31,701 nt of DNA from a virus (IMGVR_UViG_3300037246_001193:1-31701); one strand, 5' to 3'. Counted from the stretch's first letter, positions 687 through 27,860 are shown. Notes: generated by a model not told the origin, from the letters alone. A program made the numbers and translations.

Positions 687-1433
687 ATGACAATGAAATA
701 CTCGTTCGCTGAACTTGGCCAAAATATTTTAACGAGAAAATTTGGTGGGACGTCTGTGGGTGTTGCAGATCCTTATTCAACAGGTTATCATTTTATCTGG
801 TTTGATAAATTACCTGCTGGATTAGTAACTTATATTACTGATGGAATAAGTGGTTTATCATCAATTGGTGAAATACAAACAGTACTTGCAGCGTCTTGTC
901 TATCGGTTACACCGCCAGGCGGAACTCTAAATAAAATTGAGTACACTGGCCTTGGTGGCGTTAAATGGGCTGTGCCAGGAAACATCGACTATGGAAATAC
1001 TGTATCTGTAAAATTCTTGGAATTTAATAAAACTCCTCTCCTTGATATTATGCATTCTTGGGTGAAGATGATTAGAGACTATAGAACAGGTGCTACTGAT
1101 TTAATAGATGGAGAAGGTGGTGAAGGATACACAAAGAAAACTTATGCTGGTCTTATGTACTACTGGACTACAGCTCCCGATGCTAGAACAGTTGAATATT
1201 ATGCAGCATATGACGGCGTATTTCCAGGTAAAGATCCACAAGACTTATACACAAGTGATGTTGAAACAGTTGGTAGATTAGATCTTGAAATTGAGTTCAA
1301 TGTGGATTATGCATGGCACGAACCATGGGTTTATGAAAAGTGTAATTCATATGCCGCTACATTTGCTAAAGTTAAAGACACAGTTAAGGGATATGGTCCA
1401 AGACAAGCGTCTGGAGGACAAGGTCCATCGTAA
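687..1433 (+). CDS. Tail tube protein (T4 gp19-like)
   Basis: This is a 248-residue protein with the build of a contractile-phage tail tube subunit. There is a beta-rich N-terminal half, a central stretch around residues 105-135 of the type SVKFLEFN...HSWVKMIRDYRTG that resembles the fold-defining segment of gp19-like proteins, and a beta-rich C-terminal half ending in a Gly/Ser-rich tail. Tail tube subunits stack as hexamers inside the sheath to form the DNA channel. An AGGAGG site at about 671-676 supports the ATG at 687. No sheath gene is visible here; it probably lies outside the window. The call rests on pattern and tail-gene context, not on a search. Confidence 0.6.
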   Translation: MTMKYSFAELGQNILTRKFGGTSVGVADPYSTGYHFIWFDKLPAGLVTYITDGISGLSSIGEIQTVLAASCLSVTPPGGTLNKIEYTGLGGVKWAVPGNIDYGNTVSVKFLEFNKTPLLDIMHSWVKMIRDYRTGATDLIDGEGGEGYTKKTYAGLMYYWTTAPDARTVEYYAAYDGVFPGKDPQDLYTSDVETVGRLDLEIEFNVDYAWHEPWVYEKCNSYAATFAKVKDTVKGYGPRQASGGQGPS

Positions 1434-1448
1434 TATTGAGGTAATAAA

Positions 1449-1919
1449 ATGTTATCAAAATCTTATCTTAAAGTTATTGCTGCATATATTGTTCATGAAT
1501 CTAACCTTTCAAAATATGCTAAAATTCAAATACTTCGTTTTGTTGAGAATGAAGCGTCTAAATCTCAATTAAAGGTGCTCATTACTAAAGGTAGAATACG
1601 AAATGTATCTGAAGATGAGGTCGTATCAGAAGCTATCATCGTTCCAGCAATGATAATTGCTGCGGCTGTTGCAGCAGGAAAAGTAGCACATGCTAAATTC
1701 CTTAGTAATGCTGCCAAAGCATGCGCTGGTAAAGAACGTGAAGAAAAAAAGAAATGTATGCAAGATTTTAAACTAAAAGCGAATTATGCAAGATTAGGAG
1801 CTTTAAAGAGAGAAGTGAGTAAATGTAGTCAAACAAGTGATATAAAAAAGTGTCGCGATAATTTTATTAAGCATATAAAAAAAGTTGAAGATCAAATTCG
1901 TAAAGATAGAGTTATGTAG
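1449..1919 (+). CDS. Cysteine-module virion-associated protein A (one module)
   Basis: I do not recognise a named family. The 156 residues divide into an N-terminal helical region (about 1-58, with YAKIQILRFVENEASKSQLK), a short hydrophobic segment (about 63-80, IIVPAMIIAAAVAAG) and a Lys-rich helical C-terminus with Cys at 92, 103, 126 and 135. The spacing C-x10-C-x22-C-x8-C is identical to protein B immediately downstream and recurs twice in the 396-residue protein at 3923-5113. The position between tail tube and baseplate genes suggests a tail or membrane-interacting virion component, but this is inference. The start follows a GAGG site at about 1438-1441. Confidence 0.7.
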   Translation: MLSKSYLKVIAAYIVHESNLSKYAKIQILRFVENEASKSQLKVLITKGRIRNVSEDEVVSEAIIVPAMIIAAAVAAGKVAHAKFLSNAAKACAGKEREEKKKCMQDFKLKANYARLGALKREVSKCSQTSDIKKCRDNFIKHIKKVEDQIRKDRVM

Positions 1920-1934
1920 AGGAGGTAGTTAAAG

Positions 1935-2450
1935 ATGGATATTAATAAAATGAAGTTAGGTCTTATTTATATTTTTTCAGAGAATGATAAGTTATCAAAA
2001 CAAGCCAAACTTCAACTTATAAATTTTATTGAGCAAGCTGATGAATATCAATTAAAAGTTTTAGCAATGGATGGAGAAATTGTTGCAGAATCTAAACTAG
2101 ACGAGCAAGCGAGACAAATTATTAGTGATAGATTTAAAACTTTTAGTGAACTTGCGCCTATTGGTTGGGCAGCAATTGTTGCGATGGCTGCAGTAATTGG
2201 AGCAAAAAGACGTAAAGTCATGTTAAAAAAATATAATGCTGGTTGTTTGGGTAAAAAAGGAAAAGTTCTTAAGGTCTGTATGCAACAAGGAACTGTCAAA
2301 GCATATAAAGATGAAATTTCTATGTATAAAAGCCAAATGGGTAAGTGTTCACAGACCAAAAAACCAGAGAAGTGTAAAAAAGCGCTTGGGAAACATATAG
2401 TAAAAGCTCAAACGAAAATGGCTAAAGCCGCAAAGAAACTAGTATATTAA
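1935..2450 (+). CDS. Cysteine-module virion-associated protein B (one module)
   Basis: This 171-residue protein is a paralogue of the preceding gene. The N-terminal helical region has SKQAKLQLINFIEQADEYQL (residues 21-40), close to SKYAKIQILRFVENEASKSQ in protein A. A hydrophobic segment follows at about 74-90 (PIGWAAIVAMAAVIGA), then a basic helical domain with Cys 104, 115, 138 and 147, the same C-x10-C-x22-C-x8-C spacing. A strong GAGGAGGT site supports the start. The module could form disulfides or bind metal and the hydrophobic segment could insert in a membrane; neither is proven. Confidence 0.7.
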   Translation: MDINKMKLGLIYIFSENDKLSKQAKLQLINFIEQADEYQLKVLAMDGEIVAESKLDEQARQIISDRFKTFSELAPIGWAAIVAMAAVIGAKRRKVMLKKYNAGCLGKKGKVLKVCMQQGTVKAYKDEISMYKSQMGKCSQTKKPEKCKKALGKHIVKAQTKMAKAAKKLVY

Positions 2451-2495
2451 CTAACAATTTTGTAATAGATTGTGAATGAAAGGAGATAAAACAAG

Positions 2496-3287
2496 ATGAC
2501 GTTCAAAGGATTTGCAGTACAGTATCCGGAGTATGAAGTAATAACACCGCAAACTAAACAATCATTTACTTTAAGATCCCTAAGTGTACAAGAGGAAGAG
2601 AAATTAAAGGGGAGTTTAGTCACTCCGACAAAAATTGCGGAACATTTAAATAATTGTATTTTTACCTCTTTAGCTTCCAAACCGGAAGGTATTGAGGATT
2701 TAGATTCTTTTCTTCGTAGTGTAACGCTCAAAGATAGAGATGCTTTGTTATATGGTCTTTATCATGTTACGTATGAGGAAATCAGAAACTACCAGGTAAG
2801 ATGTACAGCTTGTGCTAATGAATATGCTGTAACTGTACAAGCATCTAGCACATTTAACTTCAATGCTTATCCAGGAGATAACATTATAAAAGATAAAGAA
2901 AAAGTTGAACTTCCTATTTCAAAGGGTGTTTTTGTAACGGTAAAACAACCAACTTTATTTGATGAGATTTCTGGAATAAATCAATTGGGAAATAGACCTG
3001 GAAGTACAATTGAGCTAATAACAGAAACTCTCATTATTGATAAATTTGAGCAAGATGTTCCAGAGAAAAAAGAACCAATTGAATATTCTGATAGGGTTGA
3101 TGTTATTGATGCTTATCTTTCATTACCCGCTAGAGATAAACGAGCTATATATGCAGCTTACGAAAAAGCATTTGGAGATTATGGTATTAATTTAAGAATG
3201 CAAAGTAATTGCAATAGTTGTGGCAACCAAGATGAATATGATATTGATTTGGTGGAAAGCTTTTTTCGTGCATTGTTCTCAGCATGA
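2496..3287 (+). CDS. T4 gp26-like baseplate/tail assembly protein with zinc ribbon
   Basis: The 263-residue protein carries two cysteine pairs, CTAC at 103-106 and CNSC at 239-242, forming a split zinc-ribbon-like site, and ends in DIDLVESFFRALFSA. This arrangement, and a position two genes before the large baseplate J gene, match the T4 baseplate-type family (gp26/gp51 group) of hub-assembly and tail-chaperone proteins. An AAAGGAGAT site at about 2480-2488 fixes the start. The gene overlaps a second ORF in a different frame (through 3474), and the slippery T6 run at 3261-3266 suggests a possible programmed frameshift making a longer form. Family call is moderate. Confidence 0.6.
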   Translation: MTFKGFAVQYPEYEVITPQTKQSFTLRSLSVQEEEKLKGSLVTPTKIAEHLNNCIFTSLASKPEGIEDLDSFLRSVTLKDRDALLYGLYHVTYEEIRNYQVRCTACANEYAVTVQASSTFNFNAYPGDNIIKDKEKVELPISKGVFVTVKQPTLFDEISGINQLGNRPGSTIELITETLIIDKFEQDVPEKKEPIEYSDRVDVIDAYLSLPARDKRAIYAAYEKAFGDYGINLRMQSNCNSCGNQDEYDIDLVESFFRALFSA

Positions 3288-3474
3288 TGAAATATTTAGA
3301 TTTAAAAAAGATCTAGCTGAGAACATTTATGCGTGTATGGAAATGAGTCGACAATCATATACTGATGTTATACTTATGCCTATTAAAAGGTTTCAAGATT
3401 ATCTCAAGTGGAAAACGCAGTTAGAAGAGGACAAACAAAAAAGACTGGAAGAGGAAACTAAAAAGTATGGCTAG
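3268..3474 (+). CDS. Small tail-chaperone-like ORF, possible frameshift extension of the preceding gene
   Basis: The reading frame (+1, equivalently -2, relative to the gp26-like gene) encodes HDEIFRFKKDLAENIYACM followed by a stretch ending in a Lys/Glu-rich tail, resembling the C-terminal extension of tail-assembly chaperones in other myophages. The frame has no good ATG start: GTG at 3268 with a distant GGTGGA (3251-3256) is possible, or translation may enter by slippage on the T6 run at 3261-3266. A shift there gives a fusion of about 325 residues. The ORF ends 8 nt inside the gp25 gene. The coding nature is supported by its fit between neighbours; the mode of expression is unresolved. 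Confidence 0.6.
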   Translation: MHCSQHDEIFRFKKDLAENIYACMEMSRQSYTDVILMPIKRFQDYLKWKTQLEEDKQKRLEEETKKYG

Positions 3475-3910
3475 CATATTAGATAGATTCAATGAGTCAG
3501 TTGCTGGTTCGAATTCTAAATTAGCTGATTATACTTCAAAAATTGCAGCCACAGGAGATTTCAATAGAATCAAAGATATAGAAGTTATTGTCAGTTCTTG
3601 GAATAATATATTGATTACTCCAAGAAGAACTTATCAGTGGGATCCTGAGTATGGTAGTGATTTGTATAAAATGGTATTTGAACCTGCTGATCAACCTACT
3701 GTTAATAAAGTTATAGATGAAGTTAAAAATACTTTATTGAGATATGATGATCGAGCAAATATTAGTAATGTAGATGTTACGTTTTTCAAAAACTTGAAAG
3801 GTTTTTCTGTTGCCGTTGATGTTACCTACAAAGGAGATACTGGTCAATTACAAGTTGTTATTGATGAAGCTACATACTTTAAATTTTTTGAATCTTCAGA
3901 TTCGCAATAA
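3467..3910 (+). CDS. Baseplate wedge protein gp25-like (lysozyme-like fold)
   Basis: This 147-residue protein has the GPW/gp25 family pattern: a segment for wedge assembly (VSSWNNILITPRRTYQWDPE, then YGSDLYKMVFEP) and a helix plus beta hairpin near the C-terminus (LLRYDDRANISNVDVTFFKN). In contractile tails gp25 sits at the sheath/baseplate interface and helps nucleate sheath assembly. Length is usual for the family. It overlaps the end of the preceding small ORF by 8 nt, implying translational coupling, and precedes the baseplate J protein by two genes, as in many myophages. Confidence 0.85.
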   Translation: MASILDRFNESVAGSNSKLADYTSKIAATGDFNRIKDIEVIVSSWNNILITPRRTYQWDPEYGSDLYKMVFEPADQPTVNKVIDEVKNTLLRYDDRANISNVDVTFFKNLKGFSVAVDVTYKGDTGQLQVVIDEATYFKFFESSDSQ

Positions 3911-3922
3911 GAGGTTATATAT

Positions 3923-5113
3923 ATGATTACTCAAGAGGATAGAAATATTTTAAAAGACGTTGGAAGAAAATACTTACTTGATATTGCTTTCGATAGTCAG
4001 GTATTAAAAAATAAACTTACATTTAAAGAACATGTTGATTTGTGCAAGTTCATTTCCGAGTTATCATATGAAGATGTTATAGGACTGACTATTACAGAAG
4101 ATATCAAAGAGTTTGAAGGTAAATTTAGGAAATTTTTAAAATATGGGTTTGCTGCAATTGCAGGTGGGGTTGGTACTGCGGTGGCTGCTACAGGTGTGGC
4201 TGCTACAATTGGTGGTATGATTGCTGGTCCTCCGCTTGGTATGTTTGTATTATACATAGTTAGAAAACTTACTGATACATGCTCAAGATCCTGTTGGAAG
4301 AAATTTCCAATGTCAAATGCAAGAAAGATATGCCGTTATGAGTGTCAGGTTAATGCTACCCGTAAAGTCGTAGGTGATCTCAGGTCAGAAATTTCAAAAT
4401 GTAATAGATTTCCAAATCCAGATAAGTGTGAGAAAAAGTTAAATGGTCAATATATTAAATGGTCAAAAAGATTACAACAACAAATGATTAAGTTAAATCA
4501 AGCTAAATTGGGAAAAGAAGAAAAAGGTAGAAAACAAAAACAAAAAGAACTAGCTAAGAAAGCAAGAACCATCGCTGCAAGTTATCAACTTCCAAAATCT
4601 AATTTATTAAAAATTGTGACAGAAGATAAGAGATTAAGACAAAATATTCCATTTAGACAACATGTTAAGATTTATCAAGCAGTCAGATCAATTAAAGAAG
4701 AAGAAGACATAGCTGTTGAACCTCCGAGGATAGATCCCAAAAAAGAGAAATTTGCAAGACAAGCGCTATATATGGGTCTTTGGGTAGTACCCATTCCCTT
4801 CTTTAATGATGTTGTTAATTATATTATAAAAAAATACAATTTTGCATGTATGGGTAAATGTGTGAAACAGAAGAAGTTTTCTAGAACGTTATGTAATCAA
4901 CAATGTAGTTATTTGTCAGCAAAATATGCTGTACAGTTGTTAAATAAACAATTAGCAAAATGTAGCAAAGCTAATAAACCTGTTAAATGTAAAAAGAAAA
5001 TTTATAAATTACTCGAGGATTGGAAGCAAAGAGAGGTTGAACGGAAGATTCATTTTCAAACAACCCTAAGTGGAGAGATGAAGAGAGCAAAAAGAAGAGG
5101 GGTTAAATTATAA
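3923..5113 (+). CDS. Two-module cysteine protein, putative tail/membrane virion protein
   Basis: This 396-residue protein is an internal duplication of the module seen in the two small proteins at 1449-2450. Module 1 has an N-terminal helical region (1-70), a Gly/Ala-rich hydrophobic stretch (about 75-113) and a cysteine domain with Cys 120, 124, 137, 141, 160 and 169. Module 2 has a helical region (about 210-262), a hydrophobic stretch (about 280-302) and Cys 309, 313, 324, 328, 347 and 356. The pattern is CX3C-x(10-12)-CX3C-x18-C-x8-C. Paired CX3C motifs on helices suggest a disulfide-stapled or metal-binding helical hairpin. A GAGG site precedes the ATG. The function is unknown; membrane contact during infection is my inference. 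Confidence 0.75.
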   Translation: MITQEDRNILKDVGRKYLLDIAFDSQVLKNKLTFKEHVDLCKFISELSYEDVIGLTITEDIKEFEGKFRKFLKYGFAAIAGGVGTAVAATGVAATIGGMIAGPPLGMFVLYIVRKLTDTCSRSCWKKFPMSNARKICRYECQVNATRKVVGDLRSEISKCNRFPNPDKCEKKLNGQYIKWSKRLQQQMIKLNQAKLGKEEKGRKQKQKELAKKARTIAASYQLPKSNLLKIVTEDKRLRQNIPFRQHVKIYQAVRSIKEEEDIAVEPPRIDPKKEKFARQALYMGLWVVPIPFFNDVVNYIIKKYNFACMGKCVKQKKFSRTLCNQQCSYLSAKYAVQLLNKQLAKCSKANKPVKCKKKIYKLLEDWKQREVERKIHFQTTLSGEMKRAKRRGVKL

Positions 5114-5790
5114 TGTCGTCTATTCAAAACTATGAAAGATTATATTCTTATGTACATGAATATCAAAACTTACTATATCAATATTATAGTAATCATGTAG
5201 TTAGATTTTTAGTTACATATTATAACTTAAATATCGACGATACAATATGGGAAGATGAAAATATTTTTGGTGGTTCGTATGAGCAAACTGGAGATTTGAC
5301 AGGTATAAAAAGAGATAAGATTCTACTCCTTCCTGTTTACTATCCAGAGGAAGTAACAACTGCATTTGATGCTGAGGAAATTGGATATAATAAAAATACT
5401 GAAACGACTATTGTTATACCAAGTACATATGGATTTAAACCATACCCACATGACATTATAAAGTTTGAACAAGCGTTTTTACAAACCACAAATGATACAT
5501 ATCCCCTTTATCAAATTACTGGGGTAGAGATTCATCCAAATACTGATAGAAGATATTGGAGATTAAAATGTCAAGTGTTTCAAAGTGAGACTCTGGCAGC
5601 TGTAAATGCACAAGTTGTTAATACATATTCTTTTGTTGAATATGATAAAAAAATACATACGCTTTCAGACTCACAGTTTATATCTAGACTTTTATACAAA
5701 GATTCGCTTTTAAGACCTGTTTTAAAGGATACATTATTTGATAATAGAGTTGGGTTTTACTTTACACCTAGAACGCCAGCGACCTGTTAG
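5113..5790 (+). CDS. Putative baseplate/neck structural protein
   Basis: This 225-residue protein is not firmly recognised. It is rich in Tyr and aromatic residues, with a central beta-rich section (about 95-165) containing YPHDIIKFEQAFL and YPLYQITGVEIHP, the kind of segment found in small beta-barrel virion proteins that describe interfaces or connectors. The start overlaps the stop of the preceding gene (TAATG) with GAGGGG upstream, so it is co-translated. Position between gp25-like and gp6-like genes supports a baseplate role. It contains no membrane segment or catalytic motif I can see. Confidence 0.6.
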   Translation: MSSIQNYERLYSYVHEYQNLLYQYYSNHVVRFLVTYYNLNIDDTIWEDENIFGGSYEQTGDLTGIKRDKILLLPVYYPEEVTTAFDAEEIGYNKNTETTIVIPSTYGFKPYPHDIIKFEQAFLQTTNDTYPLYQITGVEIHPNTDRRYWRLKCQVFQSETLAAVNAQVVNTYSFVEYDKKIHTLSDSQFISRLLYKDSLLRPVLKDTLFDNRVGFYFTPRTPATC

Positions 5791-5800
5791 GAGATAAAGA

Positions 5801-8284
5801 ATGACTGATACATTACTATCGGAACAAATATACTTATCTAGAGATGTAATTCGTGAACTAATTAGTAACGAAATGAAAAATTATCTTGAATTGGAGAATG
5901 TGGATTTAACGAAATCATCATTTCTTAGTTTCTTAATTGATACCATTTCTACATTAACTGGCAACCTTTTATTTTATCAATTGTCAGCATACCGTGAGTT
6001 CTTCTTAACAAAAGCACAACTACCCGAATCAATATTAAATCTTTCTGCATTTTTAGGTTACAATACTCAAGAAGCTGTCGCATCGACTGTAAATGTATTA
6101 ATAACAATGCCATTTGGCTTTGATGATCCAATTACTCAATTTTCAATTCCTGAAGGGTTTAAATTTACTGCCGATGGGAATGTTCAATTTGTAACTTACT
6201 ATGAAACATATATAGAAGTAACCAATAATGCAAATGTAACAATTCAAGTAATTGAAGGTAATAAAAGATATAACCTTCCTGTTGATTTAACAACTGAAGA
6301 TTTTAGTTTTGTTTTGCCTCTAAGACAAAATAAAATTGTAGAACAAGAATTTCAAATTGATAGTGATATACAACAATATCAATTTGTAACTTTAGATGTT
6401 CCAATTGATGGTGAAGTTGCTGGTTTAGAAGTTGAAATTCAAGAACCTGGGAGTTCTGGAACAACGACTTGGACTGAATTTGATAGTCTTTTTCTGATGA
6501 CTTCAACGGATAAAGGTTATGTAGCAAGAAGAACTGATACAGGAAGAAGATTAACTTTTGGTAATGGACTAGTTGGTGTACAACCAACTGGAGGGTCTAC
6601 TGTCTATGTAACGACATTGACAACACAAGGGATTGATGGGAATGTTATCGCTGGTTCAATTAGGGAAGGGGAAAGGATTTACCTGACAACTTTAGCTGGA
6701 ACTACTCAAATTGTTGATTACGAAGTAGTTAATGCTTCCTCTGCATATGGTGGTGTAGATGAAGAGTCCCTAGAAGAGATAAGAAGAAATTCAATTGCAG
6801 CAGTTAGAGCATTAGAACGTTTGGTTACACAAAGCGATTATGAAGATATTAGTGTAGTTGTTCCTGATGTTCCGTTCGCTCAAAATGCATTACCTGTCTT
6901 AAAACGATCAGATTTACAAGTCAATGAGATTGAGTTATTTAGCGCTATATTATATGGAACAGGCATAACTGAAACTTCAAATTTAGTCCCAACAAGAAAT
7001 GCTGTATTTACTGTACCGGCGGGAACTACAAGATTATATAGAAATGAAACTATAACAATTGGAGATTATGATTATTATAATATTTTTGAAGTAGAAATTG
7101 ATATTCAGAATACAGTAGGTGAGTATGAGTATATTGTTTTAGAAGTTGAAGTTTTACCAGCTTTAGAAACAAGTTACGTATCAACGTATGATATCTATGC
7201 TGACTTATTACAAGTCGAAAGAATAGGTACTCAAGGTATATTCAAACTACATTATAAATCTTCGGAATCTGATTCTGATTTAACGTCATGTCAAATGCTT
7301 ATTAAATCAAGCGGTTCAACTAGACTTATGACTAACGATTCAACGGGAGGTTATTTTAGTTATACGTTTGATCCCTATACTGATATTCCAGATGGTGAAC
7401 AAACATATGAGTTTACGATAAGGGATCCAAGTAATGCAGAGGTCTCGCTATATTCTAACAAGATTACATTTAGGGCTGATTTAAGTACATTCATGAGATC
7501 AAATATTGTTACTGATTCAACTACCATTACTATTTATGATGTTCCTGTTATAGAAAAAACTTATTATGATGCTGTTGATAAAATAGCATTTGAACTTCAA
7601 GTTATTCAAGAAGTAATTAGTGCTGCAGATTTATCTGATCGTAGAATGTTGACTGATTTTTCAAATATAAAGTTTACTAATACATTTGGTTTGTTAAATA
7701 CAATGTTGCTTAATCAACCTACGGTATCGGCGGTTGTTGATATTGTATTAACTGAACCGGTATCATGTAGTGTTGGAGAGAGATACATTCTTGCACCTGC
7801 AAGTAGAAACGATGCACACCAAGATAATATTATTAGATGTATAGACGCAACAGCACATACATTCTTTTATGAAAAACCTGTTGCTGATATGATTGCTTAT
7901 GTTACAGACAAAGGAGAAGATTATATTTATTCAGATGGTGGTTGGATTCCGCTTCCTCTTTATGAAATTCCTCTTGAAATTGAAATTGAAGTATTTAGAG
8001 ATCTAACATATAGTGGTACTTTAGCATCGTTACAAGAAACTGTCAGAACGACTATAATAGCGGCATTTAATGATAGATTCGGTACTGCAGCTGAAATATA
8101 TAGATCAGAGATTATTGATGTGGTTCAAGGGATTGATGGTATAAGTCATTGTCGTTTAAGAAAACCAGCGACAAGTATATTTTTTAACTTCCAATTAAAA
8201 GAATTAACTGAGGATCAACTGTTAGAATATGGTCCTGAATACGTCTACTTTGATGAGGATAGTATTACGGTTAGGGTGGTATAA
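5801..8284 (+). CDS. Baseplate wedge protein gp6-like (baseplate J family)
   Basis: At 827 residues this is the large wedge protein. The diagnostic baseplate J signature is YGGVDEESLEEIRRNS followed by RLVTQSDYEDIS (about residues 313-352), preceded by the beta-rich domain with GRRLTFGNGLVGVQPTGGS. Gp6-type proteins dimerise to form the inner baseplate ring that controls sheath contraction. A middle segment (about 440-570) looks like an inserted Ig-like domain (SCQMLIKSSGSTRLM, then PDGEQTYEFTIRDPSNAEV). The ribosome site TTAGGAGATAAAGA is strong. It follows the 225-residue gene by 10 bp and is followed after 3 bp by an unknown gene. Confidence 0.85.
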   Translation: MTDTLLSEQIYLSRDVIRELISNEMKNYLELENVDLTKSSFLSFLIDTISTLTGNLLFYQLSAYREFFLTKAQLPESILNLSAFLGYNTQEAVASTVNVLITMPFGFDDPITQFSIPEGFKFTADGNVQFVTYYETYIEVTNNANVTIQVIEGNKRYNLPVDLTTEDFSFVLPLRQNKIVEQEFQIDSDIQQYQFVTLDVPIDGEVAGLEVEIQEPGSSGTTTWTEFDSLFLMTSTDKGYVARRTDTGRRLTFGNGLVGVQPTGGSTVYVTTLTTQGIDGNVIAGSIREGERIYLTTLAGTTQIVDYEVVNASSAYGGVDEESLEEIRRNSIAAVRALERLVTQSDYEDISVVVPDVPFAQNALPVLKRSDLQVNEIELFSAILYGTGITETSNLVPTRNAVFTVPAGTTRLYRNETITIGDYDYYNIFEVEIDIQNTVGEYEYIVLEVEVLPALETSYVSTYDIYADLLQVERIGTQGIFKLHYKSSESDSDLTSCQMLIKSSGSTRLMTNDSTGGYFSYTFDPYTDIPDGEQTYEFTIRDPSNAEVSLYSNKITFRADLSTFMRSNIVTDSTTITIYDVPVIEKTYYDAVDKIAFELQVIQEVISAADLSDRRMLTDFSNIKFTNTFGLLNTMLLNQPTVSAVVDIVLTEPVSCSVGERYILAPASRNDAHQDNIIRCIDATAHTFFYEKPVADMIAYVTDKGEDYIYSDGGWIPLPLYEIPLEIEIEVFRDLTYSGTLASLQETVRTTIIAAFNDRFGTAAEIYRSEIIDVVQGIDGISHCRLRKPATSIFFNFQLKELTEDQLLEYGPEYVYFDEDSITVRVV

Positions 8285-10689: not shown

Positions 10690-13600
10690 TTACCTGATAT
10701 TACAGTTAGTTACATCATATGCAAAATTTCCGCCAGATCCGAACCCGCCACCTTCATATCCAGCTTGTCTACCATAAGAGTTAGATTGATTAGTATTTGT
10801 TGAAGTCATCATATTCGTATTATGTGTTACTGCAGCAGTAGTTTGGTCAGCTCCTTTGTCTACTTTGTCACCTACTCGTTTCCCAAGTGCATCATAACCT
10901 TTCCTTCTAGCTTCATGTTCTGTTGCTATACGAGCTGCTTCTCTAGCAGTAATAGATGGACCTTCTGCGGCAAGACGACCTACTTCTCTTGGTGATCCCT
11001 CTAGTTCTTGTAAAGACTTTTCTAATTTAGCTGCCATATTTCCTTCATGTATATCTTTGACTGCCGTTATTAACCCTGTGAATATTTTTCCAATTACTGG
11101 CAGACCAGATATTTTCTCAATAAAGGTGTTTTTAAGGTAAGTAAACGCTTTTTGAATTCCAATTAATGGGAACATAAAACTATATATTATTGTCTTCACA
11201 ACTTTATTAATTTTATCCCACATTTCGTCCCCAAGAATAGTTTTTATTTTTTCACGAAGCCATATAAATGGTTTTTTGATGTAATCAATTATAGTTCCAA
11301 ATATGTTACTAAAGAACCCCATTATTCCTTGTAAAATACCTGGTTTTTGCCACCATTCTTTAAATGAGTCATATGCTTTTCCGAGAGTCATTTTAAAACC
11401 CCATTTTAATAATACCCATGCGCTCTTCAAACCTTCCTTTAACATTTTAAATGGGAACATTACGATGTTCCATGCACCTGTTACATAGTCTTTAATAACA
11501 CCAATAGTTTTGCTGATTCCCTCAGACATCTTTTTACCACCAACGAATCCTAACATGGCTCCTGCTGCGGCACCGATTGCACCTCCTAGCAATGCACCAG
11601 GTCCTAAGAAAGCTGTGGCAGCTGCACCTAGTGCGGCACCTTTCAATGCTCCACGTTTAGCACCTGCAACGCCTGTGTCTGTTCCTCCTAAAAATCCAGC
11701 TAATCCTCTAGTAAATATACCTCCTACAAAACCTTCTGGATCTCGAATTGCTCGAACCATATCAAAAAGACCCATTCCTGTCCCAAGTATTCCACCAGCT
11801 GCAACACCTGCGACTTTACCTGCAAATGCACCAACTCTACCAATTCCCGTAGCGGCCATCCTAGCAGATCCTGCCCATCCTGCAGCTCTAGCTGCTCCGG
11901 CACCTGCTTGGACTCCTTTAGCTCCCCTTCCTGCCATTCCTAAACCTGCAAACATCTTTTTTCCTAACCAACCAGTGATGACGCCGCCAATAGACACAAG
12001 GGTTGTTACTATCTTTTTTATCGGTCCGCCAACGAAAGTTCTAAGAAAACCGAAAGCAATTAATACCCAATCCCATACTTTACTGCCCATTTTCTTAAGA
12101 CGTGCCCCCATTCTTTTTGTCATACCTAGTTGTTCTTTTGCGAACTTGTTTGCTTTTTCACCCAAAGTTAGAGATTTTGTTGCCTGATCTTCCGATTGCT
12201 CAACTCCTTGTTCACTAAATTCAGCAGTCTTTGAAATGTTCTCTGCCATACTTAGAGAATGTGGTCCTTCTCTTTCTTCCTGAGCTTCTTTCATTTCACG
12301 AAGTTTAGTTATGTCCTGTCGAAACTCGTGAAAACGTTTGGACTCAAATAAGGCTCCAAATATATTTTCTCTTGATACTCCCATCGCTCCCATGATTTTT
12401 CCTGGTCTTGCTAAACCCCCTACAGTTGTAACTCCAGCGGAGGCCAAAGCTTCTTTACTAAGACCAAGTTTGCTAACTACACCTTCAAATATTTTTTCCT
12501 GTAATGGTATAATTGATCTTGAAGTCATCATCTCTCGTATCTTATCAAACATTGTATATGTAACTTGTGTTGTAGGGGAAATTTCTTCACCAACGAGAGC
12601 TTCGGCTGCTGCTTTTGTATAAATTACAAGATTATCAACCTTTGGCATTAAGTTTGAATACAACAATGCCAATAGATTCGACACTTTTAAGAAAACATTA
12701 TGTGTTCGTGTTGCTCCTCTAACATCTCCAGCATAACCACCTCTAACTCCAAATAAAAATTTAATTGGGGTAACTATAGCTGATTTCATAAGATCAGAAA
12801 ACAAAAGTATATTCCTGAATGTTGGGTGTTGAAGGAGAGTTCTTTGCCATGCAATTCTCATACGAGAAGTCATGCCAATCAAACCAACTTTTAATTCAAG
12901 AATAGCTTTTAATAATCTTTTTTGATGTGATTCTTGTTTTGTATCTCTTGCTTTTTGAAACTCTTCAATAAATGTTCCAACTATACCCCTTTCAGCTTCT
13001 TTTCTTTCAACGACTACTGTTTCTAATCTTATTAGATTTTGGGACATTAGTGATAATGTCTTATCTAGTTTCCTTGATATTTCTGTAGCTTTTGCTTCAT
13101 CAATTTGCTTAAGAAGTTTATCAATTGGAGTAACAACTTCTGCTGCATGAACTTCAATCATTCCCCCGCGTTTAATATAACCACCTTCCTGTAGTTTCGG
13201 AGCTGTTCCTTCAATAGTTCGTTGAAGGGATTCTAAATCTGATACGGTTGCGGGTTCTTTTTCTCTTTCTTCTTTTACTACTGCTTTTCCTTTTCTAAAT
13301 ATATTAGCAATTCCAGATCCGGCTTTTGATAGTCCTTCAGTCATTGCCGAACCAACTTTATCTCTAATTTTTCTAGCTGCACCTTGGAAAACATCTGTTT
13401 CCATAAATTTTGCAGCAAAATATCCAAATAAAGGAGTTGCTCTGGAAAGAGCCATAGCAATAGTATTCGTTTTATTTATACTAATATCTTCACTAATTGC
13501 TTTTCCATATTGTCCAATAGCTTGTGAAGTTGCTTTACTTGTATCAATTGTAATGGTTTTGACGCCTGTTGCTAAAGATTCAATTGTACGTCCTAGACCT

Positions 13601-13863
13601 TTCAGGACATTGTTATAACCTTTCGCTGTTTCAGCTGTCATATCACCATATTCAACTTTCAATTGCGCCGCTGCTTTTTGCTGTTGTTTTGTTAACGTAT
13701 CAATCTCATTTGAAATTTGAAGTCTTTTTCTATTTTGCTCTTGGACTAGATCATCAGTACTTCTATGCAAACTGCTTATTCTACGTGCTCTATCACTAGC
13801 CATTGTTGTAGCGCCTTCTGTTAATAAATCTGTACCAGGTCGCATGATTTCATCATCTGGCAT
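10690..13863 (-). CDS. Tape measure protein / tail lysin-like structural protein
   Basis: At 1057 residues this is the longest structural ORF. The N-terminal 130 residues are helical and heptad-like (QEQNRKRLQISNEIDTLTKQ). A repeat-like element at about 226-246 (EGGYIKRGGMIEVHAAEVVT) matches the G-G-x-I-x...V-H-x-x-E-V-V-x-P signature seen in many tape measure proteins. Residues about 600-790 are a long Gly/Ala-rich hydrophobic region with several possible membrane segments, typical of tape measures that enter the host membrane. The C-terminus is Asn/Gly-rich. The protein is expected to fill the tail tube and set tail length. Start: ATG after AAGGAGATATAAT. No peptidoglycan hydrolase domain is visible. 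Confidence 0.7.
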   Translation of the reverse strand: MPDDEIMRPGTDLLTEGATTMASDRARRISSLHRSTDDLVQEQNRKRLQISNEIDTLTKQQQKAAAQLKVEYGDMTAETAKGYNNVLKGLGRTIESLATGVKTITIDTSKATSQAIGQYGKAISEDISINKTNTIAMALSRATPLFGYFAAKFMETDVFQGAARKIRDKVGSAMTEGLSKAGSGIANIFRKGKAVVKEEREKEPATVSDLESLQRTIEGTAPKLQEGGYIKRGGMIEVHAAEVVTPIDKLLKQIDEAKATEISRKLDKTLSLMSQNLIRLETVVVERKEAERGIVGTFIEEFQKARDTKQESHQKRLLKAILELKVGLIGMTSRMRIAWQRTLLQHPTFRNILLFSDLMKSAIVTPIKFLFGVRGGYAGDVRGATRTHNVFLKVSNLLALLYSNLMPKVDNLVIYTKAAAEALVGEEISPTTQVTYTMFDKIREMMTSRSIIPLQEKIFEGVVSKLGLSKEALASAGVTTVGGLARPGKIMGAMGVSRENIFGALFESKRFHEFRQDITKLREMKEAQEEREGPHSLSMAENISKTAEFSEQGVEQSEDQATKSLTLGEKANKFAKEQLGMTKRMGARLKKMGSKVWDWVLIAFGFLRTFVGGPIKKIVTTLVSIGGVITGWLGKKMFAGLGMAGRGAKGVQAGAGAARAAGWAGSARMAATGIGRVGAFAGKVAGVAAGGILGTGMGLFDMVRAIRDPEGFVGGIFTRGLAGFLGGTDTGVAGAKRGALKGAALGAAATAFLGPGALLGGAIGAAAGAMLGFVGGKKMSEGISKTIGVIKDYVTGAWNIVMFPFKMLKEGLKSAWVLLKWGFKMTLGKAYDSFKEWWQKPGILQGIMGFFSNIFGTIIDYIKKPFIWLREKIKTILGDEMWDKINKVVKTIIYSFMFPLIGIQKAFTYLKNTFIEKISGLPVIGKIFTGLITAVKDIHEGNMAAKLEKSLQELEGSPREVGRLAAEGPSITAREAARIATEHEARRKGYDALGKRVGDKVDKGADQTTAAVTHNTNMMTSTNTNQSNSYGRQAGYEGGGFGSGGNFAYDVTNCNIR

Positions 13864-14803: not shown

Positions 14804-16462
14804 TTAAACTTGTTCATACATACTTAAAATATCAACAAAACCACCCATCTCATCAATTTTATCTTTAACATGTTCCATAATAGCTTCATTGGTAAAGTCG
14901 GAGTTTATCCGTACATTTCCTGCAATAATACTTGCCATGTCATTTGAGAATGTAGAATATTCTTGAGTATCAATCATCATTGGTGGATCATATTTTCTTA
15001 CATAGAAAACACATGATGTGGATAAAGCTAAGTCATCATAACATCCTGTATCTGCTTCAACCCTACCATTTGTTTTTGTTACAAGACCGGTTAATTCAAG
15101 AGCTAATCTTTCTGAGTTAACACACTCAGGAAATTGTGTAATATAAGAGTAGAGAGCGTCAATCATTAATGGTCTAGTTTTTGTATTGGTTGATAATCCA
15201 GGGATAATTGTTTTCTTTTGTTTGCCTCGTTTTTCTTTATAAATCATAAATGAAAACTCACTATTATTGAGGTGCTCAACAACTTGGTTTCCATATGAGT
15301 TCGATTCTACAACGATCGTTCCTGGATATTGTGTTGCTAGCACTTTAACAACTTTTATAAAATCAAGTACTTTACATTTTCCTTGATATTCAGCAACCTG
15401 TTCAAGAGTTTCATAATCCCATACCGTTACTGCGGACTTGTCCGCTCCATGCTCAGGTGCTGTATCTACACCCATTATATAATATCTATTAGGAATTGGA
15501 TTTCTAAATCTCCACATTTCTCCATTAAATAGTCTCAATCTTTCAGTTGGTTCCATTACAGCATTTTGAACTTTCTCCATAGTATCTGGTTCAAAGAATG
15601 ATCCTTCTGTTGGTAAAAATTTCAACTCTAACTCTTGAGCAATTTTTCGTTTATCATGATCAAATAACTTACATTGAGTACTATACCAATCGGGATCATC
15701 TGCTAATTCTGGAATCATTTTCCAATGGATAACAAATGGTTCAAAAATGTCATCTCTTGAGACTGCTTTACTATATCTTTTAAAATACCATTCTCCAATT
15801 CCAATAGTTTTATTTGGAGTTGAAAGCACAACAGTTCCATATGGTACGTTTGCTTTTTTGGCTTGCATTTGATTCGTTGATAAAGCAGGAACTAGTGAAG
15901 TCCAAGCAGTATCAATATGATGAACGAATGCTGCCTCATCAATAACTAGGAAAGTAATCGCCTTACCACGAAGAGTTTTATCTGGAGCGTTTGGATTAAC
16001 AGGTGAAGCAAATACTTTACTTCCATTTGTAAGAATAAATGATTGTTCTGTTCTTTTTGCAAATCCTCTTCCCAATGGTCCTTTCGGAGGTTTCATCCAA
16101 TCAGGAAGTTTTTCGACCATTCCTCTTATTCCACGAGCAAAGTCAGTTGCTTCTTTCCCATCCTTTGAAATAATACCAATAACTGCATTATCGTAGAATA
16201 CCGTTAACCAGGTGGAATACGCTTGAATAATTGTAGAAATTCCTATCTGACGACTCTTTAATACAAGAACATATCTTTTTTTCTCAATTAAATTTACAAG
16301 TTCTACCTGTTTCTTGTATGGGTTTAGAAGAACATCTTTACCAGGAACTTCTATCAATATGTAGGTACGGCAGAAGTACTCAAAGTCAGTTTTACATCTC
16401 AAGAATTCAGATACATACTCATCTGCCATTCCTTGAATTTCAGTAACTTGAAATTTTGGCAT
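14804..16462 (-). CDS. Terminase large subunit (T4 gp17-like)
   Basis: The 552-residue packaging motor has all key elements. There is a Walker A-like SRQIGIST at 70-77, Walker B FLVIDEAA at 171-178 (Asp175, Glu176), the coupling motif STPNK at 214-218, and an RNase-H-fold nuclease domain with Asp333 (GVDTA), Glu386 (VVESNSYG) and Asp476-Asp477 (CYDDLALS). It translocates DNA into the prohead using ATP and cuts the concatemer. AAAGGAG precedes the ATG and a candidate phage promoter lies 10 to 28 bp upstream. No small terminase gene is visible beside it. High confidence. Confidence 0.93.
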   Translation of the reverse strand: MPKFQVTEIQGMADEYVSEFLRCKTDFEYFCRTYILIEVPGKDVLLNPYKKQVELVNLIEKKRYVLVLKSRQIGISTIIQAYSTWLTVFYDNAVIGIISKDGKEATDFARGIRGMVEKLPDWMKPPKGPLGRGFAKRTEQSFILTNGSKVFASPVNPNAPDKTLRGKAITFLVIDEAAFVHHIDTAWTSLVPALSTNQMQAKKANVPYGTVVLSTPNKTIGIGEWYFKRYSKAVSRDDIFEPFVIHWKMIPELADDPDWYSTQCKLFDHDKRKIAQELELKFLPTEGSFFEPDTMEKVQNAVMEPTERLRLFNGEMWRFRNPIPNRYYIMGVDTAPEHGADKSAVTVWDYETLEQVAEYQGKCKVLDFIKVVKVLATQYPGTIVVESNSYGNQVVEHLNNSEFSFMIYKEKRGKQKKTIIPGLSTNTKTRPLMIDALYSYITQFPECVNSERLALELTGLVTKTNGRVEADTGCYDDLALSTSCVFYVRKYDPPMMIDTQEYSTFSNDMASIIAGNVRINSDFTNEAIMEHVKDKIDEMGGFVDILSMYEQV

Positions 16463-24466: not shown

Positions 24467-24660
24467 ATGTCTAAATCCTTTATATCGAATATAGGCAAAT
24501 GTTTTTGTTTATCCTCCTCTTCCTCTTCAGCTATTACTTTAAGCTCGTCTTTTATTTCATCTACTTTACGCTTAATGCGAGTATTCACATCCGCAGGTTT
24601 GTGATAATTGCTAGCGGAAGCGGTAGAAGAACTAAACCAATTATTATGTATTACACTCAT
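24463..24660 (-). CDS. Small 65-residue acidic protein with FDIKDLDI tail
   Basis: The 65 residues have a Ser/Asn-rich start, a charged helix (KRKVDEIKDELKVIAEEEEE) and the C-terminus LPIFDIKDLDI. It overlaps the end of the beta-subunit gene by ATGA and has AGGAG 10 nt upstream. Position directly after the RNA polymerase genes makes a polymerase-associated role possible, but there is no direct evidence. Confidence 0.65.
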   Translation of the reverse strand: MSVIHNNWFSSSTASASNYHKPADVNTRIKRKVDEIKDELKVIAEEEEEDKQKHLPIFDIKDLDI

Positions 24661-27659
24661 CTTTGATCAACTCCTATTACGGTGAGATATGAATTGAGTA
24701 ATTTAACAGATTCAGGTACTGTATCTAACTCTTTACTTTCGTCAGTAAGAGTAGCTTCAATGAAATTACGGATGTAATTATTTTTTAAATCAATACAGTC
24801 GGATTTAGTTGTTAGAAATTCATGTAAGTTAACTGGGGCATCATGACCAATTAAACATGCGGTTTCCATTTCGCCACATCTTTGCCCCCCTTTGTTTTTT
24901 CTACCTCCAAGAGGTTGAAGGGTTCGTCTTGCATATGCTCCAATTCCTCTTGCTGCAAGTTTCTCTTCTGCAATATGAACCATTCTGAAAAAGTTAATAA
25001 ATCCAACAGCTATCCGCTTTACTAAATGAACTTTGGCTAATGGATCATATATCTTATATTTAAATTCTGCCCCCGTGTATTTCATTGCTTCTTCAACTTG
25101 CTCTAATCTACATGATTGAAATGGAGGTTGGATAATAGTTAAATCTTGAATGAACTCCTCTGTTATTGTTTTTGGGATCTGTTTAGAAAACTGATCATAA
25201 TACCATCCACCCTCTGTACAATCAACTATCTGTATGAATTTTAACAAGTACTGTTTGATGTTTTTCTGTATAATATTATCTTCAAGCATTTGTAACATTG
25301 ATTGTTTTAGAGAATCTACTGCCATAGATAAATGCATTTCATATAACTGTCCGATGTTCATCCTAGATATGATACCTAGAGGATTAATACAGATATCCAT
25401 ATGTCGTCCATCTGGTAATTGTGGCATTTTGTCATGGGGAACAATTCTAGATATCACTCCTTTATTCCCATGCCTATTTGCCATCTTATCCCCCACTTTT
25501 ACACGTCTGAAATGAACTCCATACATTTCAACATGTATACCATTTATTCTCTCACGTTTTTGTTTATACTTACCAACGAATGAGAATTTATCTAGGTTGT
25601 GTTCTCTGACAGTTTTTATAGCTTGATCTTTGGGCATAACTTGTTTAAGAACTTTCTGTAGATCTTTTTCTTTATCTTGTTGTTCTTCTAATTTGGCCTC
25701 AACCCATTCTCTGTATTCAGGTAACTCTTCATTCCATGAGTTACCATACAAATTTACTTCGGATATTATATAGTTTTTTCTAGCTTCTAACGGTATCTGT
25801 TCAGAAAAGACTGAATAGTATTCGTCTGAATTTAACTTTTTAAGAATGGCATATGGATCGCCTGCGTTGATTGTTTCAAATTCCTTTGGTAAAGGTTTAT
25901 ACTCATCTTCTTTTAAAGAAAGGAGAACTTTATCTGGAGTTAATGTAAATGATAAATCTTTATAATGGACAGATGTTAAAATATCATCATTGACAAGTCT
26001 GTCTGATATTACAATACCATCTTCATAATTGTTTCCATAATATACCATCACTCCTGTTAGCAGGTTTTTACCAATATTTATATTACCGTCCTTACAGAAA
26101 TTACTTTCTGCTAAGATGTCTCCACCTTTAACCTTATCGCCTGGTTTAACATATATGTTCATAAAATCCATATGCTCAACATAGATTTTTCTATATCGAA
26201 TGTCAAAGATCTCAACATCTTTATCATTATATAGAACAATAATGTAGTCCTTATCAACATGAACTACTTCTCCATCTTTTTTGGCGATTTTAACGAACTG
26301 TGTATGCCTTGTATATAAACCTTCACAACCAGAACTTATCAGGGGAGTATCAAATTGCCTCAGCATAATTGCTTGTCTCATTTGTGAAGACGCCATTTGT
26401 AATCTTGTTTGGTCGTCGTGTTTAAGAAATGGAGTCATTGAAACAGGTATTGAAATTGGGTGATTTGCACAAATGTCATCTGTGAACTTTAAGTTTTCAT
26501 CAAGATGTACATTTGGAACTAAATTCTGTAATACTCCACAGTTATCTCTATCTGGAGTATCAACTGGACATAAACGCCCAAACATAGTCGGACAAATATC
26601 CCTTAAATGTTTTGGAATATTTTCTCTTTTAAAACCACCTGGCCCAAGAAGACTTATTCTTGATAGTTTTGTCAGTTCTTCAATTGGGTTTATTGAAAAA
26701 TCAAACTGAACAATATCCGAGACATTACAGTCTGACAAAATCTGGGTAGAGTTAATATTAAATTTGGGTTGTCTAGCTGTTCGGTTTGCAAAGCATAGAT
26801 CAAATATAATCTTTGAGATTTTTGAAATTACAACATACTCAAAACACCTTACTCGCTTATTCGTGAATAATGTATCATCAATTGATCCTGTCTTAAGAAT
26901 TTCAGTTAGCTCTTCTAAAATAGAATCATGTTCCATAAACTGCGCTGTAATCAGATCAACTTTGGGAATTAAATCAATTGCATATAATATATCATCTCCC
27001 TTTGATTTTGCATTATATCTGGAATATATTCTTCCGAGTTCGAGAGTAAAGTCATCAATTGTATATCCAATTGATTCTTCACAGTAGCTTTTTAAGTCGT
27101 ATCGTAGTAATTCATAAAGATTATCACTATCCGGATCAACGTCAATGTTAAGATCATATTTTTCAGTAGCAGCTTCGATACCATGATATGCTAATAATAT
27201 TAAAGATAACGGAACTTTTTTACCTAAGAAACTGATCCGAATATATGGTTCTTCTTTATTTTTAAATACCATTATGGTTGCTACATTTGTTCGTAGCTTT
27301 ATAGTCTCGCCTCTGGTGACGATGGGAATATCGAAAAGCTGAAATAAAGGGATTTTTCTTCTTCCATTAATATAAATATAATTTCCATCAACTAATTTAG
27401 GAATAAATATACTTAAGTCAATTTCAGAACTGCCCTTTTGTAACTTAATAGCCAATGTTTGTTTGAGAGTTTTGGCCAGCTCTCCTGATGAAAATCTAGA
27501 ATCTTTGAGATTGATCTCATTTATTTGAAATCCAATTTCTTCAACAGGTTTAACTATTTCTTGTACAATAGGTAAAATCTGGTCATAATCTAGTTGTCGA
27601 ATTGTGAAGATATTTCTATCTTCGTTTTGAATTGTAGATATTGGATTAATTATTTTCAA
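24657..27659 (-). CDS. DNA-directed RNA polymerase beta subunit (phage-encoded, unsplit)
   Basis: The 1000 residues contain the conserved beta blocks in order: the rifampicin-pocket region FSINPIEELTKLSRISLLGP (321-340), TMFGRLCPVDTPDRDNCGVL (358-377), MRQAIM near 427-432, GDKMANRHGNKGVIS (723-737), INPLGIISRMNIGQ (758-771), and the C-terminal LQPLGGRKNKGGQRCGEME. It is about 340 residues shorter than E. coli RpoB (lineage insertions absent) but spans the whole fold in one chain, unlike phiKZ-type split subunits. The pocket differs from E. coli at positions equivalent to D516 (Phe321) and H526 (Lys331). TTG start with GGGGGA 8 nt upstream. Products pair with the beta' gene upstream. Confidence 0.97.
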   Translation of the reverse strand: MKIINPISTIQNEDRNIFTIRQLDYDQILPIVQEIVKPVEEIGFQINEINLKDSRFSSGELAKTLKQTLAIKLQKGSSEIDLSIFIPKLVDGNYIYINGRRKIPLFQLFDIPIVTRGETIKLRTNVATIMVFKNKEEPYIRISFLGKKVPLSLILLAYHGIEAATEKYDLNIDVDPDSDNLYELLRYDLKSYCEESIGYTIDDFTLELGRIYSRYNAKSKGDDILYAIDLIPKVDLITAQFMEHDSILEELTEILKTGSIDDTLFTNKRVRCFEYVVISKISKIIFDLCFANRTARQPKFNINSTQILSDCNVSDIVQFDFSINPIEELTKLSRISLLGPGGFKRENIPKHLRDICPTMFGRLCPVDTPDRDNCGVLQNLVPNVHLDENLKFTDDICANHPISIPVSMTPFLKHDDQTRLQMASSQMRQAIMLRQFDTPLISSGCEGLYTRHTQFVKIAKKDGEVVHVDKDYIIVLYNDKDVEIFDIRYRKIYVEHMDFMNIYVKPGDKVKGGDILAESNFCKDGNINIGKNLLTGVMVYYGNNYEDGIVISDRLVNDDILTSVHYKDLSFTLTPDKVLLSLKEDEYKPLPKEFETINAGDPYAILKKLNSDEYYSVFSEQIPLEARKNYIISEVNLYGNSWNEELPEYREWVEAKLEEQQDKEKDLQKVLKQVMPKDQAIKTVREHNLDKFSFVGKYKQKRERINGIHVEMYGVHFRRVKVGDKMANRHGNKGVISRIVPHDKMPQLPDGRHMDICINPLGIISRMNIGQLYEMHLSMAVDSLKQSMLQMLEDNIIQKNIKQYLLKFIQIVDCTEGGWYYDQFSKQIPKTITEEFIQDLTIIQPPFQSCRLEQVEEAMKYTGAEFKYKIYDPLAKVHLVKRIAVGFINFFRMVHIAEEKLAARGIGAYARRTLQPLGGRKNKGGQRCGEMETACLIGHDAPVNLHEFLTTKSDCIDLKNNYIRNFIEATLTDESKELDTVPESVKLLNSYLTVIGVDQR

Positions 27660-27671
27660 TGCTGAATCCCC

Positions 27672-27860
27672 CTATTCTTTAATATACACATCACAAAATG
27701 ATTTTAAAGCTTCCTCTAGTTTATCATCTTCAACAAAATAAGGATCGCTATTCATTCGTAAAACATTCATTATAAGTTGAGTTAGTCGAAGGTCTGGCGC
27801 ATGACGCCAGATCTTTTCGACCGACCCTAGAATACGTTCAATTCGAGCGGGATCTCTCAT
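27672..27860 (-). CDS. Small protein between the RNA polymerase genes
   Basis: The 62 residues begin MRDPARIERILGSVEKIW and contain APDLRLTQLIMNVLRMNSDP followed by FVEDDKLEEALK. This resembles a small bacterial family of unknown function with an M-R-D-P-x-R-I start and P-D-L-R-x-x-Q-L-I core. GGGGAGAAAATAAC precedes the ATG, which overlaps the beta' stop. Its place inside the polymerase operon makes a role as polymerase partner or assembly factor attractive, but this is speculation. Confidence 0.65.
   Translation of the reverse strand: MRDPARIERILGSVEKIWRHAPDLRLTQLIMNVLRMNSDPYFVEDDKLEEALKSFCDVYIKE

Follow-up and report, generated by a model that had tools for sequence, protein, structure and literature searches.

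We describe three basic proteins, P1, P2 and P3, encoded among the tail genes of an uncultured virus, which form a lineage-specific family with a repeated unit of one hydrophobic segment followed by a cysteine-bearing (Cys) domain. The Cys domain occurs four times—once each in P1 and P2, twice in P3 (copies P3a and P3b)—and, judged from sequence, the four copies are homologous rather than alike by chance. At somewhat under an even chance, the reading we put first is that P1–P3 are minor tail proteins of the virion and, during ejection, insert into the host envelope, braced by stapled hairpins. The stretch of DNA analysed, called the window throughout, is a 31.7-kb fragment; in it the three ORFs, which have plausible ribosome-binding sites, were re-read, and the coordinates and Cys spacings reported in the first-pass annotation all matched. 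Their features are as follows.

1449..1919, + strand: P1, 156 aa, with N-domain, hydrophobic helix and Cys domain C92-x10-C103-x22-C126-x8-C135 (ORF, AlphaFold, hydropathy)
1458..1589, + strand: P1 N-terminal three-helix domain, of a type common to P2 (AlphaFold helices 4-17, 22-35, 38-47; P1/P2 family alignment)
1644..1721, + strand: P1 hydrophobic helix, residues 66-91, likely membrane-spanning (KD19 maximum 2.28; helix in model)
1722..1913, + strand: P1 Cys domain, helices 97-128 and 132-155, Cys pairs at two turns (spacing, AlphaFold, profile comparison)
1935..2450, + strand: P2, 171 aa, with P1-type N-domain, hydrophobic segment and Cys domain C104-x10-C115-x22-C138-x8-C147
2244..2447, + strand: P2 Cys domain (spacing, profile comparison)
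3923..5113, + strand: P3, 396 aa, a tandem duplication of the unit N-domain, hydrophobic segment, Cys domain; its net charge is +46
4133..4255, + strand: P3 first hydrophobic segment, Gly/Ala-rich, residues 71-111 (KD19 1.35-1.66)
4280..4582, + strand: P3a Cys domain, C120-x3-C124-x12-C137-x3-C141-x18-C160-x8-C169 (spacing, AlphaFold)
4772..4828, + strand: P3 second hydrophobic segment, residues 284-302, borderline (KD19 1.33)
4847..5095, + strand: P3b Cys domain, C309-x3-C313-x10-C324-x3-C328-x18-C347-x8-C356 (spacing, AlphaFold)

The Cys gaps are 10/22/8 in both P1 and P2; the first module of P3 reads CX3C-x12-CX3C-x18-C-x8-C and the second CX3C-x10-CX3C-x18-C-x8-C, so that a core of C-x(10-12)-C-x22-C-x8-C is present in all four. 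Homology is detectable by BLASTP between single window sequences (P1-P2 1e-13, P3a-P3b 4e-9, P2-P3b 1e-8, P1-P3a 4e-4) and by profile-profile comparison of the Cys domain only (P1-P2 1e-14, P1-P3a 3e-10, P1-P3b 1e-7, P2-P3b 3e-9, P3a-P3b 8e-11). The N-domains of P3a and P3b are likewise related (hhalign E 8e-6); however, the P1/P2 N-domain has no kinship to the two of P3 that hhalign could detect (E 0.18 and 0.87). A common origin for all N-domains was thus considered and set aside, profile comparison leaving two kinds, that of P1/P2 and the duplicate of P3; because of this, the repeated unit common to all four copies is the hydrophobic segment plus the Cys domain. The first-pass annotation had extended the shared module to an N-terminal helical region, a part of its claim that the profiles do not bear out.

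AlphaFold2, run on P1 and P3 with 17-sequence alignments, gave models of moderate confidence (P1 pLDDT 78, pTM 0.52; P3 pLDDT 67, pTM 0.56). Helices are predicted at residues 66-91, 97-128 and 132-155 of P1, and at 105-124/132-162/166-220 and 291-315/321-347/353-391 of P3. Unrelated folds among the copies, together with absence from virions, had been named in advance as evidence against the proposal; the models of P1, P3a and P3b—the three copies covered—gave instead one layout, a helix-turn-helix-turn-helix zigzag, with the centres of the Cys pairs 0.5-3.5 residues from the turn or loop centres.

The setting of the three genes is that of a T4-like tail cluster; tube, gp26-type hub, gp25 and gp6 genes were recognised in the window by PHROG/Pfam matches. 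The neighbouring features are listed here.

687..1433, + strand: tail tube-like gene (PHROG virion structural 3e-11, tail tube 1.5e-4; synteny)
2496..3287, + strand: T4 gp26-type baseplate hub gene, between P2 and gp25 (PF12322 8e-9; synteny)
3467..3910, + strand: gp25-like sheath initiator/baseplate wedge, directly upstream of P3 (PF04965 7e-8, PHROG 6e-20)
5113..5790, + strand: w225, a 225-aa gene; its start codon and the stop codon of P3 share one base (TAATG)
5801..8284, + strand: gp6-like baseplate wedge (PHROG 3e-33; T4-like cyanophage gp6 relatives)
10690-13863, - strand: likely tape measure, 1057 aa, basic, with long Gly/Ala-rich hydrophobic stretches (named from its appearance; no PHROG/Pfam recognition)
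14804-16462: large terminase
24657-27659 and 27857-30568, - strand: two RNA-polymerase beta/beta'-type subunit genes

The tube-like gene lies directly upstream of P1 and is its invariant neighbour, and only 12 bases separate gp25 from the start of P3. The nearest isolates by gp6 are T4-like cyanophages and similar phages, at ~25% identity, and one relative of the window (L010; relatives are given by L numbers) sits on a 223-kb contig, G001, which places the lineage among large or jumbo phages. Two RNA-polymerase beta/beta'-type genes and a terminase in one region are an uncommon combination for a phage with a T4-like tail. The moraphage lineage was considered as an identity and rejected: it is reported without phage RNA polymerase (PMC12619734), whereas the window encodes beta/beta'-type subunits. 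The 1057-aa protein, encoded on the strand opposite to the baseplate genes, is likely to be the phage's tape measure, its gene separate from P1–P3; once it was found, the idea that P3 is the tape measure was dropped. Tape-measure proteins are helical components of the tail that contain hydrophobic segments, and some are thought to extend to the inner membrane; P1–P3, in contrast, are short (156-396 aa, with the 1057-aa candidate nearby) and Cys-rich, unlike a long tail-length ruler.

Scans of IMG/VR returned ~33 uncultured phage contigs with P1 and/or P3, a count that includes some near-duplicates. As far as the contigs reach, the order is constant: HAD, tube, P1, (P2), gp26, an 84-aa gene (sm84), gp25, P3, w225, gp6 and a 369-aa gene (w369); in this synteny comparison P1 was not recognised in L038, L077 and L079, nor P2 in L041 and L045. 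The locus resembles the baseplate locus of T4-like cyanophages in having homologous gp25, gp26 and gp6 around P1–P3; it differs in that gp25 and gp6 are adjacent in the T4-like phages Melnitz-2 and S-T4, but are separated here by P3 and w225, which are therefore insertions at the wedge locus. Among relatives P1 (33-71% identity) and P3 (40-82%) diverge faster than tube, gp26 and gp6 (60-94%)—between the window and L041 the values are 35% for P1, 46% for P3, 76% for tube, 71% for gp26 and 63% for gp6—yet the module cysteines are all kept, with four in every P1 found and six in every complete P3 module. P3 is represented by two genes in L085, by two separate ORFs in L082/L084 and by a single module in L083, so one module can stand alone.

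P2 is the exception to this constancy: its C-terminal half is highly variable, many relatives have no hydrophobic peak and several have lost the whole Cys domain, which makes this copy dispensable. In L040 the protein at the P2 position (L040:5291-6523, 411 aa) has a P1-type Cys domain preceded by a long insertion of low complexity, rich in Lys, Gly and Ala. The module is also found beyond the three genes: two additional Cys-domain proteins are encoded by the 223-kb relative. The larger (320 aa) belongs to a second tail cluster, where it lies ~six genes away from a gp5-like hub gene and where a PAAR gene is also present; the smaller (222 aa; L021:7491-8156; G001 123490-124155) is not in a tail cluster. 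The Cys module is thus mostly in tail clusters, but not confined to them. The 222-aa protein fuses two short C-P-x-G-F...C motifs (a weak chitin-binding match, E 0.017) to the Cys hairpin domain, and adjoins an actin-like-ATPase-like gene, named from sequence only. The same genome holds a Cas4-like exonuclease gene (PHROG 5e-29; L020:6823-7812) beside the second tail cluster, and about a dozen copies of an HNH-type protein that is rich in Cys and has a motif like CQYCGKKAxHVHHERPQKLEPFFALDPD (e.g., L026:7193-8080, L021:1713-2720, L030:4323-5252), which suggests a burst of homing endonucleases.

Searches for known relatives support the earlier proposal that this tail gene cluster encodes an undescribed family built of repeated helical hairpins with Cys. 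A tblastn search of 50,697 phage records gave no match for P1, P3, two divergent versions of P3 or the two additional Cys-domain proteins; a genome search found no relative in bacteria or archaea; PHROGs and Pfam returned weak, scattered matches, none convincing; and a PDB sequence search yielded no convincing match. Foldseek against PDB and BFVD gave no match at E<=0.001, the best in BFVD being an uncharacterised uncultured-phage protein (E 0.017), and VIA-align found only generic helical bundles at Z 7-9, a range that the tool's own note calls common. Since the fold searches return generic helical matches only, we claim no fold kinship. Literature searches for CX3C hairpins in phages found nothing relevant.

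How the cysteines pair can be read from the variability of P2, in which the N-domain is kept and the C-terminal Cys content varies like a natural mutagenesis series. The full four-Cys pattern is present in the window, L004 and L040; the third pair only, with a longer loop (x13), in L010; outer and third pairs (x20/x18/x8) in L039 and in the 222-aa L021 protein, exactly the spacing expected after loss of the inner pair; a bare twin CX3C (CX3C-x11-CX3C) in L035; two C-x11-C pairs in L079; and a single C-x12-to-16-C pair in L033, L036, L038, L047 and L055. No C-terminal Cys remains in L005, L011, L012, L064, L077, L080 and L083. The C-terminal Cys number is therefore 0, 2 or 4, even in 19/19, with 0 or 1 in the N-domain. 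When all 15 perfect pairings of the six sites were scored against the aligned states, only one was free of conflict—o1-o2, i1-i2, t1-t2—and the next best had four conflicts; because the sequences are related, this score cannot be read as a formal probability, and in the reduced variants the sites were assigned by spacing. In these natural variants loss and gain occur only as inner-inner, outer-outer and third-turn pairs. A four-Cys metal site is not expected to survive as isolated pairs, which makes disulfide staples at the helix turns the favoured reading of these sequence patterns. Of the two options first proposed, disulfide or metal stabilisation, the former is thus favoured and the latter is not. 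Structural Zn sites, in which the four Cys of CX3C...CX3C bind Zn as in reduced Tim9/Tim10, are very unlikely: reduced small TIMs do hold Zn with all four Cys (PMC3759932) and the P3 spacing is compatible, but each turn of P1 and P2 has just two Cys, some variants retain only the outer or only the second-turn pair, the counts are always even, and ~22 helix residues lie between the two turns.

The pairing so deduced resembles that of known stapled hairpins. Small TIMs have a twin CX3C motif, an antiparallel helical hairpin, and inner-inner and outer-outer pairing (PMC3759932). The CX3C-x(n)-CX3C spacing of Tim9/Tim10 (PF02953) recurs in P3a, P3b and the P2 of L035, with the pairing deduced from co-loss and the hairpin from AlphaFold; P1–P3 differ in being phage-encoded and fused to a hydrophobic segment, with a third helix and a third Cys pair, and P1/P2 carry only the inner pair, with no outer pair. 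None of six records passed the curated cut-off of the PF02953 profile (best 13.9 vs 22.3 bits; 7 of 14 prokaryote controls also score below it), so on sequence grounds we would not place the family among the small TIMs; the likeness is, as originally proposed, one of analogous geometry. Plant alpha-hairpinins share the arrangement XnC1X3C2XnC3X3C4Xn, with C1-C4 and C2-C3 disulfides in a helix-loop-helix (PMC7191063). Their motif, and that of scorpion and cone-snail hairpin peptides, occurs in P3 and the P2 of L035, where the bonds would be those deduced above; these are, however, short secreted peptides without a hydrophobic segment or tail context, and no sequence kinship to the family was found. 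That P1–P3 are small-TIM-like chaperones escorting hydrophobic tail proteins such as the tape measure is hardly to be expected: the twin CX3C hairpin and a nearby gene for a tape-measure-like protein with hydrophobic stretches fit it, but P1–P3 carry a hydrophobic segment within their own chain, the Tim10/DDP profile stays below cut-off, and small TIMs lack the third helix and third Cys pair.

That the proteins may belong to the virion and act on membranes is suggested by where their genes lie, by their hydrophobic segments and by their positive charge. Hydropathy is clearly high in the P1 segment (KD19 2.3), moderate in those of P2 (1.8) and P3a (1.7) and borderline in that of P3b (1.3); among relatives P1 mostly has one strong peak (KD 1.8-2.4), P3 shows a single peak or two near residues 70-110 plus a weaker one at ~284, and P2 has a peak in only some. 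Net charges are +16 for P1, +19 for P2 and +46 for P3 against -67 for gp6, with tube, gp26 and gp25 also negative. This charge contrast and the borderline hydrophobicity of P3b would suit basic structural proteins in which the hairpins, being positive, bind either the DNA within the tube or the gp6-like wedge, which is acidic, and in which the hydrophobic segments are packed within the tail and not in a membrane; we consider this quite unlikely, as the P1 peaks of most relatives are higher than is usual in soluble proteins. Holin- or spanin-like lysis proteins would also be small and basic with a hydrophobic segment, and one weak PHROG holin match (E 0.21, the sole match) was obtained; but the genes hold a fixed place among tail genes rather than in a lysis cassette across >30 contigs, several paralogues exist and no endolysin was recognised beside P1–P3, leaving this a very slight chance.

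We infer, then, a role in penetration. Each module would end in a three-helix zigzag with turns stapled by disulfides—the first by an inner-inner staple (plus an outer-outer one in P3), the second by a further pair—and the zigzag's first helix would continue the hydrophobic, membrane-type segment. Held in the baseplate or tail of the virion, P1–P3 would be released into the host envelope upon contraction; the hydrophobic segments would insert, and the stapled lysine-rich hairpins may surround the passage for DNA or tube as a rigid anchor or collar. For this we count homology, fixed gene order, pairwise Cys changes, predicted helices, hydrophobic peaks, basic charge, the 320-aa copy near gp5-like hub and PAAR genes, and the split or single-module P3 relatives; against it, the dispensable P2, the 222-aa copy that is not in a tail cluster, the moderate confidence of the models, and the search for phage-encoded Erv1 or thioredoxin, which found none in six relative records, mostly fragments. 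The bacterial cytoplasm is normally reducing, so that the staples would have to wait for export, lysis or ejection, a further point against penetration.

The main rival, which we rate as somewhat unlikely, is that P1–P3 are membrane-anchored assembly factors: absent from the virion, they would tether baseplates or tubes under construction to the host inner membrane via their hydrophobic segments, with gp26-like and gp25-like partners, and be left behind. Their position beside gp26-type and gp25 genes fits, as does the capacity of P2 to shrink to an N-domain without Cys or hydrophobic peak, as an adaptor might. By the positive-inside rule the lysine-rich domain of a normally inserted protein faces the cytoplasm; this suits an assembly factor and counts against penetration, so the rival stays a serious one. 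Against it, the pairwise Cys conservation argues for disulfides, which would not form in a reducing cytoplasm, and T4 baseplate assembly, as generally described, needs no membrane anchor.

The preferred penetration role could also take the form, unlikely in our estimate, of a redox-locked device: TIM-like disulfide-stapled hairpins on membrane helices, shipped in the baseplate, would fold or lock in the oxidising envelope and form or brace an inner-membrane DNA passage. P1–P3 are best classed as a new family that puts a known structural device to work in a new setting, and the case shows how a disulfide topology can be read from paired Cys loss in natural variants. If confirmed, they would add another case, seemingly independent, of the stapled CX3C hairpin that small TIMs and alpha-hairpinins employ; inner-membrane crossing by contractile-tail phages is poorly understood, and the family would be a concrete candidate for that step.
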